38,019 nt of DNA from Bacteroidales bacterium (lineage in GTDB: Bacteria; Bacteroidota; Bacteroidia; Bacteroidales; UBA932): assembly GCA_021443515.1 (NCBI GenBank), contig JABUTT010000194.1:1-38019 (forward strand). The letters are read 5' to 3'. Positions 7,802 to 23,506 of this stretch are shown here, piece after piece (positions within the stretch are counted from its first letter, which is position 1; each line of letters starts with the position of its first letter). The notes beneath the pieces were generated by a model. That model ran no database searches. It was not told where the DNA came from and was given only the letters and a program-made list of their open reading frames with translations. Made by a program: the position numbers and the translations under genes.

Positions 7802-8689
7802 TCAATTTTCCGGTGTTGATTGTTGGAATCTGCCCCCACGTTTTGCGTTCTTCTGCTCTGTAGGTTGCTTGGATTCAGGAGCGGCAGGCTTTGCGGGCTC
7901 CGTAGCTACCGGCTTGGTGGCTTCGGTTGCGGCAGGCTTTGCGGGCTCCGTAGCTACCGGCTTGGTGGTTTCGGTTGCGGCAGGCTTTGCGGGCTCCGGT
8001 GCTGCAGGTGAAGCAAACGAAGCATAGCCCGGCTTCGCCTTGGCTGCTTCTGTGGCATCACCGGCATCCTTAACAGCCAATGTATCTGCCACGGCAAGCG
8101 AATCCACGGCAAATGCAAGGGTATCGACTATTATCATCGGACCGCGGAAAATTGTGTCCCTGCCTTTCTGAGGGTCAAAGTTCCACACGCCACATCCGGT
8201 AGAATCCACATAAACCTTTATGCTGTCGCAGATTGCAAACACCTTCGATGTGTCGCTCAGACCTACTAAGAAGTAATAATGCTCCGGAGCATAGAGGTGG
8301 ATTGCCTCAAGTTTATTTTCAAGAGCCCTCTGTTTTTGGAGTTCCGCCTCATATTCTTCCAATTCGACTGTGGCGGTTTTCAGTTTGGCATCAATGATTC
8401 TGCCTGAAGCCTTGATTACCCTCGTAAAGAGTATCGGGTCGCTCATATAGTTTTCTATCGAGGTCTGATAGTCCTTTGCTGAGTAACCATATTTTTCAAG
8501 TATGCTCTCATAGACCAGGGTGGTATCGAGAAAACGTTTCGAATTGTTGTATTCCTCAGAAATAATCTGGTCTGCAATGAAAATTTCGGCATATATCTTC
8601 TTAAACGTCTTCTTTGGGATGATCTTTCCTCGAGAACATCCCGCAAGGCATATAACCGCGCACAAGAAGAGTAGAAGACTGCGTTTCAT
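7802..8689 (-). CDS. DUF4296-like lipoprotein with Ala/Pro/Thr repeat C-terminus
   Basis: Lipobox MKRSLLLFLCAVICLAGCSRGK; IIPKKTFKKIYAEIFIADQII...YGYSAKDYQTSIENYMSDP resembles DUF4296; C-terminal EPAKPAATETTKPVAT repeats. Confidence 0.8.
   Translation of the reverse strand: MKRSLLLFLCAVICLAGCSRGKIIPKKTFKKIYAEIFIADQIISEEYNNSKRFLDTTLVYESILEKYGYSAKDYQTSIENYMSDPILFTRVIKASGRIIDAKLKTATVELEEYEAELQKQRALENKLEAIHLYAPEHYYFLVGLSDTSKVFAICDSIKVYVDSTGCGVWNFDPQKGRDTIFRGPMIIVDTLAFAVDSLAVADTLAVKDAGDATEAAKAKPGYASFASPAAPEPAKPAATETTKPVATEPAKPAATEATKPVATEPAKPAAPESKQPTEQKNAKRGGRFQQSTPEN
7881..7998 (-). repeat. 48-bp in-frame tandem repeat (2 full copies plus about 22 bp)
   Basis: gcggcaggctttgcgggctccgtagctaccggcttggtgg[c/t]ttcggtt at 7881-7928 and 7929-7976, partial copy from 7977. 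Encodes the EPAKPAATE(A/T)TKPVAT unit. Confidence 0.95.
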
Positions 8690-18184: not shown

Positions 18185-19438
18185 TTACAAATAGATTAGC
18201 GTTGACATATTTGAAAAAACCTCGTTTGCCACACTCTGAACCTCTTCAGCTGTGACTGCTCCCACCTTGAGTGCCGCCACATTGTCGCTCGGGACACGAC
18301 CATAGCAGGTAAGACTCTTCGCCATACTCAGGGCCTGAGCCTCGCCACTGTCCTCCGCCACGGCAAGTTGGCCGAGAAGTTGCTTCTTTGCAGCTTTAAG
18401 AGCTTTCTCACTCAACGGTTTTCTTTGAAGTTTTGCTATTTCCCTGTGAACCGCCTTTATGCATTTTGAGAGATGTTCTTCCTCGCAACCGAGAATAATG
18501 GACACGATGCCCGTGTCGGCATATTGGGTGTAGTTGCATTCCACATTATACACCCATCCATATCTCTCCCTCAGGGATGAATTCAGTCTGGAGTTCATTG
18601 CAGGACCTCCAAGAATGTTGAAAAGAAGCGTGGCAGCAATACGTTTTCTCTCCTCGTAGAGCGAAGGAGCGTATGAGCCTATAATGCAATTCACGAGATT
18701 ATTGTCCTTGTTGACCTTCTCGAAAAAAGGCTTGTAGTACTTGAAAATATGGACGTCCTTAACCTTTGGGAGAGCTTCTGCAACAGGATCACAACCCTCC
18801 GGATGCGCCGTAGAATAATACTTTCGGGTGAGTCTCAACACCAGCCTCTCAAGATATTCCTCCTTGTAAGGAGCCACGATGACAAAGGCCGTGTTTGCCG
18901 GCACGAAAAACTCTTTCCTGAAAGCTACGAGCTGTTCCGAAGTGATTGACCTCACGCTTTCCTCAGTTCCGAGAATGCGCTTTGATAGAGGGTGGCCAGC
19001 AAAAAGTTTTTCTTCAAAAACATCATATATGTCCTCCGAAGGCGAATCCCTATATGTGTCGATTTCGTCTATCACCACGCCTTTTTCCTTCTCCACCTCA
19101 GCAGAAGGGAAGGTTGCATCGGTTGCAAGTTCAAAGAGAAGGTCTGCCGCCTTGAGTATATCATCCTTGAGAACTGTGGCATGGAAGGTAATGTCTTCCT
19201 TGCTTGTGTAGGCATTGAGTTCTCCCCCAAGCGAATCGAGGTAAGAACTTATTTTTGAGGCGGATTTGCGGGTAGTTCCCTTGAATATGGTATGTTCCAC
19301 AAAGTGCGCAAGGCCCTCGGGATATTTGCCATCTTCAACAACCGTTCCCGACCTTACGCTCAATGCAGTGTAGGCAACTTTGCCATAACTCTGTCTGACC
19401 GCGTATTTTATTCCCTCGGGGGAAATTCCTGATTTCAT
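18185..19438 (-). CDS. M16 family zinc peptidase (insulinase/processing-peptidase type)
   Basis: HxxEH motif in GLAHFVEHTIFKGT; downstream EKGVVIDEIDTYRDSPSE. Confidence 0.93.
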   Translation of the reverse strand: MKSGISPEGIKYAVRQSYGKVAYTALSVRSGTVVEDGKYPEGLAHFVEHTIFKGTTRKSASKISSYLDSLGGELNAYTSKEDITFHATVLKDDILKAADLLFELATDATFPSAEVEKEKGVVIDEIDTYRDSPSEDIYDVFEEKLFAGHPLSKRILGTEESVRSITSEQLVAFRKEFFVPANTAFVIVAPYKEEYLERLVLRLTRKYYSTAHPEGCDPVAEALPKVKDVHIFKYYKPFFEKVNKDNNLVNCIIGSYAPSLYEERKRIAATLLFNILGGPAMNSRLNSSLRERYGWVYNVECNYTQYADTGIVSIILGCEEEHLSKCIKAVHREIAKLQRKPLSEKALKAAKKQLLGQLAVAEDSGEAQALSMAKSLTCYGRVPSDNVAALKVGAVTAEEVQSVANEVFSNMSTLIYL

Positions 19439-20154
19439 TTCTTTTTCGGAATCTTCTTATCCTTATACATATAGAGAGTATGGTCGGAGCATCCTATGTA
19501 CATCTTGTAGGAATGTGAAACTCCATAAGTGGGGTTTGACGGACAGATATCATAGACGACCACCTTGTCGGGGTCAGCCGATTCCATTGCCTCGATAATT
19601 TTACTACTGTCGGTGATGATCTCGGCAGTTCTCGGAATTTTGTTGAACGATGCAAGGGTGGCGAGATTTCCGTAGGCATAACTATCCCTTTCAGTGGCCT
19701 TGCGAATAAATTCCTGCATAAATTCCACAAGAATTGGGAAGAAATAGACATTCTGCTCTGAAAGTTCCTCGGCATTGCCCACGGGAACGGTCACTATATT
19801 TATATTATGGTCCGTGCCCGTCTTGAAAGCATCCAGAACTCTGATACCGCTTCCTTCCTCGCCGGGATATTTCGATATGTTCGTCACAACAAAATAGTAT
19901 TCCGGCTTGCCTTTCAAGGTTTGATACTCTCCGTATGTACAGAATTCATAGGGAGAAATCTCCCACCTCGTATCCACCGCATCACGAAGTACCTTGTCGT
20001 AGAAAATATTGCCTGTAAGTACGAATTTCGTGGTTTTCTCCATAAAATCCGCAATCTCGTGGCGCTTTGTATAAACCTTTGCAGCAGTCTGTCCAAAAGC
20101 CGACAAATCTATCATTGCACATGCAACGCAAAGTGCGAATAAGGTCTTTTTCAT
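19435..20154 (-). CDS. Secreted protein of unknown function
   Basis: Signal peptide MKKTLFALCVACAMIDLSAFGQ; 4-bp ATGA overlap with the M16 gene; no family recognised with confidence. Confidence 0.75.
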   Translation of the reverse strand: MKKTLFALCVACAMIDLSAFGQTAAKVYTKRHEIADFMEKTTKFVLTGNIFYDKVLRDAVDTRWEISPYEFCTYGEYQTLKGKPEYYFVVTNISKYPGEEGSGIRVLDAFKTGTDHNINIVTVPVGNAEELSEQNVYFFPILVEFMQEFIRKATERDSYAYGNLATLASFNKIPRTAEIITDSSKIIEAMESADPDKVVVYDICPSNPTYGVSHSYKMYIGCSDHTLYMYKDKKIPKKK

Positions 20155-20158
20155 ATAT

Positions 20159-20173
20159 CGATAAATTTTATCG
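20159..20173. promoter_or_regulatory. 15-bp palindrome CGATAAA-T-TTTATCG next to start codon
   Basis: Read directly: cgataaattttatcg; 7-bp arms around one central base, 4 nt upstream of the minus-strand ATG (20152-20154). Confidence 0.5.
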
Positions 20174-20289
20174 TTATCACTAAGATATTACCCAACAAAT
20201 AGTAACACGCAAATATATAGTATATATCTGAAATAAGCAAGTTTAGAGAGATAAACTCTCAATTTCAGGAAATTCTGTGGCACTTCTTA

Positions 20290-20440
20290 GTTGCCTCCAA
20301 GCTTTGTTGGCAGCTCTCCTCCGGAGGACTTCCGCTCCGCTCCATTCCTCCCACTGCGCTACGCTTGCGGGTCCATCCCTCTAACGGTCCGAGGGTGGAC
20401 ACGGTCCCCGGAGAAGACTGCCAAACGCTTCTACGGCAAC
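20290..20440. repeat. Imperfect inverted-repeat element of about 150 bp with internal hairpins
   Basis: Left arm gttgcctccaagctttgttggcagctctcctccgga; reverse complement of right arm gttgccgtagaagcgtttggcagtcttctccgggg. Internal stem gtccatccct (20371-20380)/agggtggac (20392-20400) and palindrome TCCTCCGGAGGA near 20317-20328. Confidence 0.7.
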
Positions 20441-20542
20441 AAGCTCCCATCGCAACCGACTCAGCGAGGATAGCCGTTCCTTCGTGCTCCCCGTAGCTGA
20501 GATGGTAGTAGCCGAATCGCATATATTGAGAGACTCCGTCGC

Positions 20543-20580
20543 GACCTCGGACGAAAAACGGCTAAAATCGTCCGAGCCTA
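20543..20580. repeat. 38-bp palindromic direct repeat, copy 1
   Basis: gacctcggacgaaaaacggctaaaatcgtccgagccta; 9-bp perfect arms ctcggacga/tcgtccgag, 13-nt loop. Confidence 0.95.
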
Positions 20581-20625
20581 AAACCACACCCCCACTGCAG
20601 GGCCTTCTATGGCACATCGTAAACT

Positions 20626-20663
20626 GACCTCGGACGAAAAACGCCCAAAATCGTCCGAGCCTA
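20626..20663. repeat. 38-bp palindromic direct repeat, copy 2
   Basis: gacctcggacgaaaaacgcccaaaatcgtccgagccta; differs from copy 1 at two loop positions, stem bases identical; 83-bp period. Confidence 0.95.
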
Positions 20664-20686
20664 TGTTACGCTTCGGTGAAAAGAAC

Positions 20687-20720
20687 AAAAAAACAGCAAG
20701 TACCGCAAATGATACTTGCT
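20687..20720 (-). terminator. Rho-independent-type terminator downstream of ppdK
   Basis: Minus strand AGCAAGTA-N10-TACTTGCT followed by GTTTTTTTGTT (stem arms at 20695-20702 and 20713-20720). Confidence 0.75.
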
Positions 20721-20782
20721 GAATTTTATTTGGAGAGGCGAGCAGGCCTCAATAGCGACCTGCACCGCGAAAATATATGCGA

Positions 20783-23506
20783 TTAGGCCTCGATTGCAGC
20801 CTGCGCGGCAGCGAGACGTGCGATTGGAACGCGGAATGGTGAGCAAGAAACGTAGTTCAGGCCGATTGAAGCGCAGAACTTAACGGATGCAGGGTCACCA
20901 CCATGCTCACCGCAAATGCCACATTTGAGGTTGTTGCGTGTTGCACGACCATTTGTCACTGCATAGTCAACGAGTTTACCCACGCTCTTGGTGTCGAGAG
21001 TCTTGAATGGGTCAGCGTCGAGAATCTTGTTGCCAAGATAGTCGCCCATGAAGGTGCTGACGTCATCACGTGAGAAACCGAATGTCATCTGGGTAAGGTC
21101 GTTTGTACCGAATGAGAAGAACTCTGCGGTACGAGCCATTCTGTCGGCTGTAAGGGCAGCACGAGGTATTTCAATCATAGTACCGAACTTGTAGTCGATA
21201 TTCTCGAGAGTCTTGCTCTCAACCTCTGCCTTGACTTTCTCGCAGATAGCCTTCTGGAAACGAAGCTCGCGCTCGGAAATTGTCACAGGAATCATAATCT
21301 CAGGCTGTGGGTTGAAACCTTCTTTCTTAAGTTCTGCCGCAGCGGTGAAAATAGCCCTGAACTGAGTTTCTGAAATCATTGGGTAAGTGACGTGGAGACG
21401 CACTCCGCGGTGTCCCATCATAGGATTGACCTCATGGAGAGCCTCGCCCCTCTTGTCGATATCTGCCTCTGAAATGTGGAGTTCCTTAGCAAGTTCCTGT
21501 TTCTTGTCGTGAGTCTGAGGAACGAACTCGTGAAGAGGTGGGTCGAGAAGACGGAAGGTAACAGGCTTGCCGTCCATAACCTTCATTGTGCCCTTGACTG
21601 AAGCCTTGATATATGGCTCAAGCTCTGCAAGCGCGCTGCGACGCTCATCATCAGTCTTCGAAAGAATCATCTTGCGGAGTTTTGAAAGCGGAGTCTCTGA
21701 ATTGCTGCCGTAGAACATGTGCTCGATACGGAAGAGGCCGATACCTTCTGCTCCGAATGAGAGAGCGCGTGCAGCATCCTCAGGAGTATCTGCGTTTGTG
21801 CGAACACCCATCTTGCGGAACTTGTCGGCGATTTCCATAAACTTCACGAAACGTGGGTTGTTGGAAGCATCCATTGTAGCGATGCCCTCAGCATAAACGG
21901 CACCCTTTGCACCATTGAGTGAGAATGTATCGCCTTCGTGATATATCTTGTCTGAACCTGCGAAAGAAACTTCCTTCTTCTCAAGGTCAATCTTCATAGT
22001 CTCGCAACCTACGATGCAGCACTTACCCCATCCGCGAGCCACGAGAGCAGCGTGTGAAGTCATACCGCCCTTCTGAGTGAGGATACCTACGCAAGCACGC
22101 ATACCTTCAACATCCTCAGGAGAGGTTTCCTCACGAACAAGGATGACTGCTTTCTTTGCAGCTGCAGCGGCTACTGCGTCAGCATTTGTGAACACGATAG
22201 TTCCTACCGCGCCACCCGGAGAAGCAGGGAGACCGAGCGCAACAGCCTTTGCTTTCTTCTCTGAAGCAGGGTCAAGGATTGGGTGGAGAATTTCGTCGAG
22301 CTGAGAAGGAGAAACCCTCTTGACTGCTGTCTTCTCGTCAATCATACCTTCCTCAAGCATATCCATTGCCATATTGAGGGCTGCAAGACCTGTTCTCTTG
22401 CCCACACGGCACTGGAGCATCCAAAGTTTGCCTTCCTGGATAGTAAACTCGATGTCCTGCATATCGTTGAAGTGACCTTCGAGGTGAAGACGAATGTCGT
22501 CAAGTTCCTTGTAAACTGCAGGCATTGCCTCTTCGAGAGATGCAAGGTGCTTGTTCTGCTCGCTCTTTGTTGCGATGTTGAGCGGGTTCGGAGTGCGGAT
22601 ACCAGCAACGACATCCTCACCCTGTGCGTTGATGAGCCACTCGCCATAGAACTTGTTGTCACCATTGGCAGGGTTACGAGAGAAAGCCACACCTGTAGCT
22701 GAAGTCTCGCCCATATTTCCGAAGACCATTGACTGAACGTTTACTGCTGTGCCCCAATCATCAGGAATACCCTCAATCTGACGGTACTTGATTGCACGCT
22801 TTCCGTTCCAAGACTTGAATACGCCACCGATTGAACCCCAAAGCTGAGCCTCTGCATCATCAGGGAATTCTACTCCGAGAACTTCCTTGATACGAACTTT
22901 GAAAGCCTCAGCAAGAGTTTTGAGTTCTTCTGCAGTGATTTCCGTATCAAGTTTGTAGCCCTTAGCCTCTTTGAGTTCTTCCATCATCTTGTCGAGTTGC
23001 TGGCGGATAGCCTTGCCATCTTCAGGCTCGATACCCTCTGCCTTCTCCATTACGACGTCTGAGTACATCATGATGAGACGACGATATGCATCATATACGA
23101 AGCGTGGGTTGCCTGTTTTCTTGATGAGTCCCGGGATGGTCTTAGAGCAAAGACCGATGTTGAGGATGGTATCCATCATACCCGGCATTGAACTTCTTGC
23201 GCCTGAACGGCAGCTTACGAGAAGAGGATCATTCTCATCGCCGAATTTCTTGCCCATGATTGCCTCTGTAGCCTTGAGAGCCGCAGCGACATCCTTCTTG
23301 AGTTCTTTTGAATAGCCACCGCCGAGTTCATAATACTCTGTGCAGCAGGCAGTTGTAATTGTAAAACCTGCAGGAACAGGCATACCGAGAAGACTCATCT
23401 CAGCGAGGTTTGCACCCTTACCGCCGAGGAGTTCGCGCATTTTGCCATTGCCTTCAGCCTTCTTTCCGCCAAAGCAATAGACTCTTTTTACTGTTTCGTT
23501 TGCCAT
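20783..23506 (-). CDS. ppdK: Pyruvate, phosphate dikinase
   Basis: MANETVKRVYCFGG...LGGKGANLAEMSLLGMPVPAGFTITT; catalytic-His region GGMTSHAALVARGWGKCCIVG; C-terminal GICGEHGGDPASVKFC. Confidence 0.97.
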   Translation of the reverse strand: MANETVKRVYCFGGKKAEGNGKMRELLGGKGANLAEMSLLGMPVPAGFTITTACCTEYYELGGGYSKELKKDVAAALKATEAIMGKKFGDENDPLLVSCRSGARSSMPGMMDTILNIGLCSKTIPGLIKKTGNPRFVYDAYRRLIMMYSDVVMEKAEGIEPEDGKAIRQQLDKMMEELKEAKGYKLDTEITAEELKTLAEAFKVRIKEVLGVEFPDDAEAQLWGSIGGVFKSWNGKRAIKYRQIEGIPDDWGTAVNVQSMVFGNMGETSATGVAFSRNPANGDNKFYGEWLINAQGEDVVAGIRTPNPLNIATKSEQNKHLASLEEAMPAVYKELDDIRLHLEGHFNDMQDIEFTIQEGKLWMLQCRVGKRTGLAALNMAMDMLEEGMIDEKTAVKRVSPSQLDEILHPILDPASEKKAKAVALGLPASPGGAVGTIVFTNADAVAAAAAKKAVILVREETSPEDVEGMRACVGILTQKGGMTSHAALVARGWGKCCIVGCETMKIDLEKKEVSFAGSDKIYHEGDTFSLNGAKGAVYAEGIATMDASNNPRFVKFMEIADKFRKMGVRTNADTPEDAARALSFGAEGIGLFRIEHMFYGSNSETPLSKLRKMILSKTDDERRSALAELEPYIKASVKGTMKVMDGKPVTFRLLDPPLHEFVPQTHDKKQELAKELHISEADIDKRGEALHEVNPMMGHRGVRLHVTYPMISETQFRAIFTAAAELKKEGFNPQPEIMIPVTISERELRFQKAICEKVKAEVESKTLENIDYKFGTMIEIPRAALTADRMARTAEFFSFGTNDLTQMTFGFSRDDVSTFMGDYLGNKILDADPFKTLDTKSVGKLVDYAVTNGRATRNNLKCGICGEHGGDPASVKFCASIGLNYVSCSPFRVPIARLAAAQAAIEA

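Follow-up and report, generated by a model that had tools for sequence, protein, structure and literature searches.

Within the window, i.e., the whole 38,019-nucleotide stretch of Bacteroidales DNA that was analyzed, positions 20290–20440 very likely represent one of many copies of a palindromic mobile element that is non-autonomous and belongs to a clade of Bacteroidales, which is the best explanation overall. The surrounding interval (20265–20663) lies between a minus-strand gene (19435–20154) and ppdK (20783–23506, minus strand), and is a composite of this genus-wide element and a genome-specific satellite. Neither this composite structure nor the pseudoknot that the element contains was part of an earlier note on the same DNA, which had described a single structured noncoding interval.

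Layout of the interval

When the window's own genome was searched by blastn with positions 20200–20730, 20 matches were obtained, i.e., the interval is repetitive. Among 101 congeners, 30 yielded a match, almost only on window positions 20309–20439, while the region from ~20450 to 20663 had blastn matches within the window's own genome only, so that the gap consists of an element followed by a satellite. The noncoding character that the earlier note had given to 20265–20663 was upheld, as no convincing open reading frame (ORF) was found. Its suggestion of a dispersed MITE- or REP-like repeat held for 20290–20440. The two palindromes in 20543–20663 make up a separate repeat, namely a satellite with an 83-bp period.

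The element (20290–20440; all element and satellite features are given on the plus strand) is the 151-bp imperfect inverted repeat previously described, and its central part matches the congener copies. In its outer stem (P1), the left inner arm (GTTGGCAGCTCTCCTCCGGAGGAC, 20306–20329) is complementary to the right inner arm (GTCCCCGGAGAAGACTGCCAAAC, 20404–20426) with a few bulges and mismatches, while the outer parts are GTTGCC (20290–20295) and GGCAAC (20435–20440). This P1 belongs to the same subfamily as those of two copies linked to insertion sequences (IS; L026 and L104). The conserved core (20337–20404) matches covariance model R1 with 81.6 bits. It includes a hairpin P3 (20350–20371), in which CCCAC (20350–20354) faces GCGGG (20367–20371) around an inner GCG (20356–20358) and CGC (20362–20364), and a hairpin P4 (20385–20403), in which CG (20385–20386) and GTCC (20387–20390) face GGAC (20397–20400) and CG (20402–20403). 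The pseudoknot (20377–20395) pairs CCCTC (20377–20381) with GAGGG in the P4 loop (20391–20395). The hairpin reported earlier near 20371–20400 corresponds to the GTCC/GGAC pairing, and the GTCCGAG motif highlighted there is indeed found at 20387–20393, its GAGGG being the loop strand of the conserved pseudoknot.

The satellite comprises a hairpin module (20460–20501), whose 6-bp stem CTCAGC (20460–20465)/GCTGAG (20496–20501) had also been recognized and whose layout recurs in contigs C108 and C20, and the two palindromic repeats already listed in the earlier note, each 38 bp long. These two units, the first at 20543–20580 (CTCGGACGA-N13-TCGTCCGAG) and the second 83 bp away at 20626–20663, are 95% identical, and the 83-bp spacing is also found in contigs C108, C98, C99, and C20, predominantly at the ends of contigs.

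Several other repeats were observed around the interval. Contig C108 of the same genome (L005, 1401–1615) resembles window positions 20110–20324, i.e., the beginning of gene 19435–20154 and the sequence upstream of it, at 85% identity, and this segment adjoins a longer satellite array. A 17-nt inverted repeat (94%) connects the satellite region (20511–20527) to the ppdK stop codon (20772–20788), and the tail of ppdK looks partly duplicated (20732–20757 vs 20781–20807). An inverted repeat with A/T runs at 20688–20727 (no strand assigned) fits a putative ppdK terminator. Farther away, a tandem repeat scan identified 2.5 copies of a 48-bp unit at 7881–7998, also readable as 24-bp units.

Distribution, core fold, and outer stem

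To survey copies beyond the window, we used a covariance model built on the conserved ~69-nt centre of the element (model R1). Within the genus, this model matched 180 of 200 genomes, often with ≥20 copies each and up to ≥25 or 41 matches per genome. The genome of the window itself contains two cores. Across the family, the model matched 37 of 120 genomes and, counted by genus, 9 of 26. An order-wide sample, which doubles as a specificity control for the model, had the core in 3 of 149 genomes, two of them within the family and hence one outside. The genomes surveyed are mostly fragmented MAGs. The matches that carry a name were Bacteroidales MAGs and included Candidatus Cryptobacteroides choladohippi, hence the genus of the window is probably Candidatus Cryptobacteroides. 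No match to the element was found in viral contigs (one exact pattern) or phage records, no relevant match in Rfam 15 at gathering and permissive thresholds, and nothing relevant in the literature on Cryptobacteroides repeats.

When aligned, copies from other genomes share a conserved centre, while their outer stem varies from copy to copy. Across 81 distinct cores, 95.3% of the cells in the structure formed by P3, P4, and the pseudoknot were paired, and 13 of 20 pairs had changed on both sides, i.e., the covariation check was positive. This level of pairing was reached in 0 of 500 shuffles, and sliding the partners reduced it to 28–42%. By component, 93% of cells were paired in P3 (double changes at 5 pairs), which occurs in several alternative forms, and 94% in P4 (double changes at 5 of 7 pairs). 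For the pseudoknot, to which the alignment was not fitted as it was to P3 and P4, 99.7% were paired, with GC, TA, AT, and CG all represented at one pair and TA and CG at the next. Among core mismatches, A.C exceeds G.T, mostly from one column.

The sequence of P1 differs between copies, yet its arms stay complementary: the median complementarity score was 37 for 75 copies, vs 15 for flanks paired at random across copies. P1 mismatches included 58 G.T and 73 A.C, i.e., no G.U bias, so that nothing points to selection acting on an RNA strand. Five copies in genome G252 have identical cores (0 differences over 640 compared sites) and nevertheless 35 compensated double changes in P1, alongside 33 single changes that stem largely from one out-of-register copy. 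This pattern would follow from a DNA-level process in which one P1 arm serves to correct its partner. Specifically, we propose that both arms drift in concert, with template switching inside the hairpin as the probable mechanism, which would let the P1 sequence change fast while complementarity is kept.

Alternatively, P1 may be target-derived, either because the core inserts into pre-existing hairpins or because it copies the target flank in inverted form on insertion. P1 does differ between copies with near-identical cores, copy L254 of genome G235 resembles an empty site holding one outer P1 arm, and the PrmC gene of L126 has host-like codons (GTTGCAAGGC) in the left flank whose inverted counterpart (GCCTTGCAC) is found in the right arm. 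However, L254 could equally have arisen by deletion between TGC repeats, deletion derivatives are also known from elsewhere (L310), and P1s of copies in the same genome are homologous and diverge through paired changes, leaving a target origin of P1 rather unlikely. We hold a similarly low expectation for a new type of transposition in which the element proper would be the pseudoknotted core with its inner stem, the target flank would be copied in inverted form by snap-back synthesis, the outer stem would be made anew at each insertion, and recognition would be by fold.

Movement and insertion into genes

Returning to a mobile element that carries its own co-drifting arms, the dispersion of copies and the presence of empty orthologues at ~60–80% identity suggest that the element moves. 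We infer that it would do so as a folded single DNA strand recognized by a trans-acting enzyme, which would join the hairpin to new sites without target duplication. The case for single-stranded DNA as the active form draws solely on the missing G.U bias and the missing target duplications. Recent-looking copies were taken from six genomes. For target duplications, 82 of 105 copies had no direct repeat of ≥5 bp near the P1 ends (78%; control 85%), with a small excess of direct repeats at 6 bp (10 copies vs ~3 expected). Copies would then persist between genes, usually just 3′ of a gene, or where the frame stays open in a tolerant loop.

We searched the neighborhood of copies for a recurrent gene that could act as mobilizer and found none except an IS1182-type transposase in four loci. 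In five loci (L026, L077, L078, L104, and L140), an IS1182-type IS carries the element inside its left end, while most copies are solo. The IS ORF has DUF772 and DDE_Tnp_1_6 domains in the three loci scanned (L026, L078, and L104). In all five loci, the element is located between the terminator-like left end of the IS and the transposase start. In genome G235, a unit of P1 and core is found inside a MITE family with terminal inverted repeat (TIR) ACGATTATCCGCAAAATTACCCC and apparent 8–9 bp target duplications, judged by eye. This family (L250–L279 and L310–L323; TIR TTATCCGCAAAATTACCC) has 88 TIR sites and members of several lengths, some of which carry the element core in either orientation.

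These loci would be expected if the element were a classical MITE, with P1 as TIRs recognized by a DDE transposase, e.g., that of the IS1182-type IS that carries the element near its left end, and the apparent duplications around the G235 family point the same way. We nonetheless consider this improbable: P1 is not conserved between copies, which leaves no sequence-specific TIR, target duplications across the 105 copies are close to control, and the G235 sequence between P1 and the MITE TIRs is non-complementary, so that the unit looks like a passenger. Instead, both the IS1182-type IS and the G235 MITE seem to have acquired the element and to serve as its vehicles, although the IS1182-type transposase may play a role in its movement. 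RAYT-like Y1 transposases represent a weak lead for the mobilizer. Genomes with Y1 genes (98 of 200) hold a median of 11 element copies vs 6 for those without (MWU p = 6e-5, ignoring kinship), but 16 of 40 high-copy genomes had no Y1 match, and the core was nearby in just 2 of 20 Y1 loci.

Based on rough ORF calls, intergenic copies are usually located just downstream of a gene and in the same orientation. Many other copies are inserted in frame in Pfam-recognized genes, namely SpoU/TrmH, TilS (PP-loop), a nucleotidyl transferase, PrmC, AroB, a radical SAM protein, TruB, RsgA, a U32 peptidase, GH3, a histidine phosphatase, and a Mur-ligase-type protein that we take to be FolC, and also in a protein that is presumably MazG. 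For TilS, inserts were found between RGIP and (L)IRPLL in five species, with an empty version in G027, and for PrmC, empty loops of ~16 residues occur beside filled ones, with two copies in G027. For TrmH, the core was detected inside the frame at E < 1e-6 in 15 of the 30 species most similar to an insert-bearing query, which is thus not a genus frequency, and more weakly in two others. Since the inserts of some of these 15 species are related, there were fewer than 15 separate insertion events. The TrmH inserts (10 forward and 7 reverse) occupy all three phases of one shared loop, and among the sequences listed there was no internal stop through the insert. In an AlphaFold model of one filled TrmH, insert residues 65–89 have pLDDT < 50 for an overall mean of 84, i.e., the insert sits in a predicted disordered loop of an otherwise confident model. 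Separately, a candidate second repeat (GGGGTGTTTGAGGGGGTNCGCCCCCTCATTGA) was observed in the intergenic region upstream of the element in L026 and in frame in PrmC of G111 (L292), where it is flanked by a ~24 bp direct duplication.

The insertion pattern also bears on the second option of the earlier note, a structured ncRNA, or more generally a cis-regulatory or noncoding RNA kept for a host function. Such an RNA could account for the strong covariation with a pseudoknot and for intergenic copies mostly following a gene in the same orientation. Yet copies occur at many places with unrelated neighbors and by the tens per genome, they are found in both orientations and all three phases inside protein-coding genes, P1 has no G.U excess, and Rfam gave no match, which together make a host RNA gene very unlikely. 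Less plausible still is an intron-like or bypass element, i.e., in-gene copies removed from the mRNA or skipped by the ribosome. The many housekeeping genes hit and the strongly folded insert are in line with it, but frames stay open through the inserts, which would be needless if the copy were removed or skipped, and both orientations occur within one TrmH loop. Finally, a unique degenerate spacer with chance palindromes, which has the lack of an ORF and nothing more in its favor, is refuted by the copies in the host and its relatives and by the covariation of the core, and its probability is close to nil.

Relation to known repeat families

By behavior, the closest known kind to this mobile element would be the Rickettsia palindromic elements (RPE), a likeness drawn from described features. 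RPE and the Wolbachia palindromic repeats are multi-copy repeats of ~105–150 bp (PMC10969869, PMC2229807, citing Ogata et al.), found in intergenic positions as well as in frame within conserved genes, with mobilizer and target duplication unknown (PMC10969869, PMC2229807). The element is alike in size (151 bp), palindromy, copy number per genome, and in-frame insertion in conserved genes (TrmH, TilS, PrmC, TruB, RsgA, AroB, and others). However, RPE have one conserved peptide while the element has none, as it is read in both orientations and all phases in TrmH, and the element differs in its Bacteroidales host, GC-richness, conserved pseudoknot core, and hypervariable outer stem.

Correia/NEMIS, RUP, and ERIC are MITEs, i.e., small, non-autonomous, with inverted-repeat ends and many copies, and MITEs usually have fixed TIRs and target site duplications (TSDs; PMC2229807). 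The element shares the former set of features, but its ends are not conserved in sequence and have no consistent TSD, the MITE that hosts it in G235 being an apparent exception. Integron attC sites are recognized by their folded structure and have a variable stem sequence. The element has a variable stem as well, but its centre is conserved while the outer stem varies, and no cassette context was seen. REP and BIME are hairpin DNA repeats associated with RAYT (Y1) transposases, for which no TSD is expected. The element is likewise a hairpin DNA repeat, and more copies of it are held by genomes with Y1 genes, but it is larger, has a pseudoknot, and was nearby in only the two of 20 Y1 loci mentioned above. 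REP elements are surveyed in PMC3733652.

Protein-coding palindromes have so far been described mainly for Rickettsia and Wolbachia, and the element would represent a second family, in a distant lineage. We know of no other bacterial repeat for which a fixed pseudoknot core paired with co-drifting arms has been described. With members in hundreds of genomes from bacteria that are common in the gut and rumen, this second family makes both the entry of such repeats into essential proteins and their movement testable, and in TrmH a single loop has received many separate insertions.
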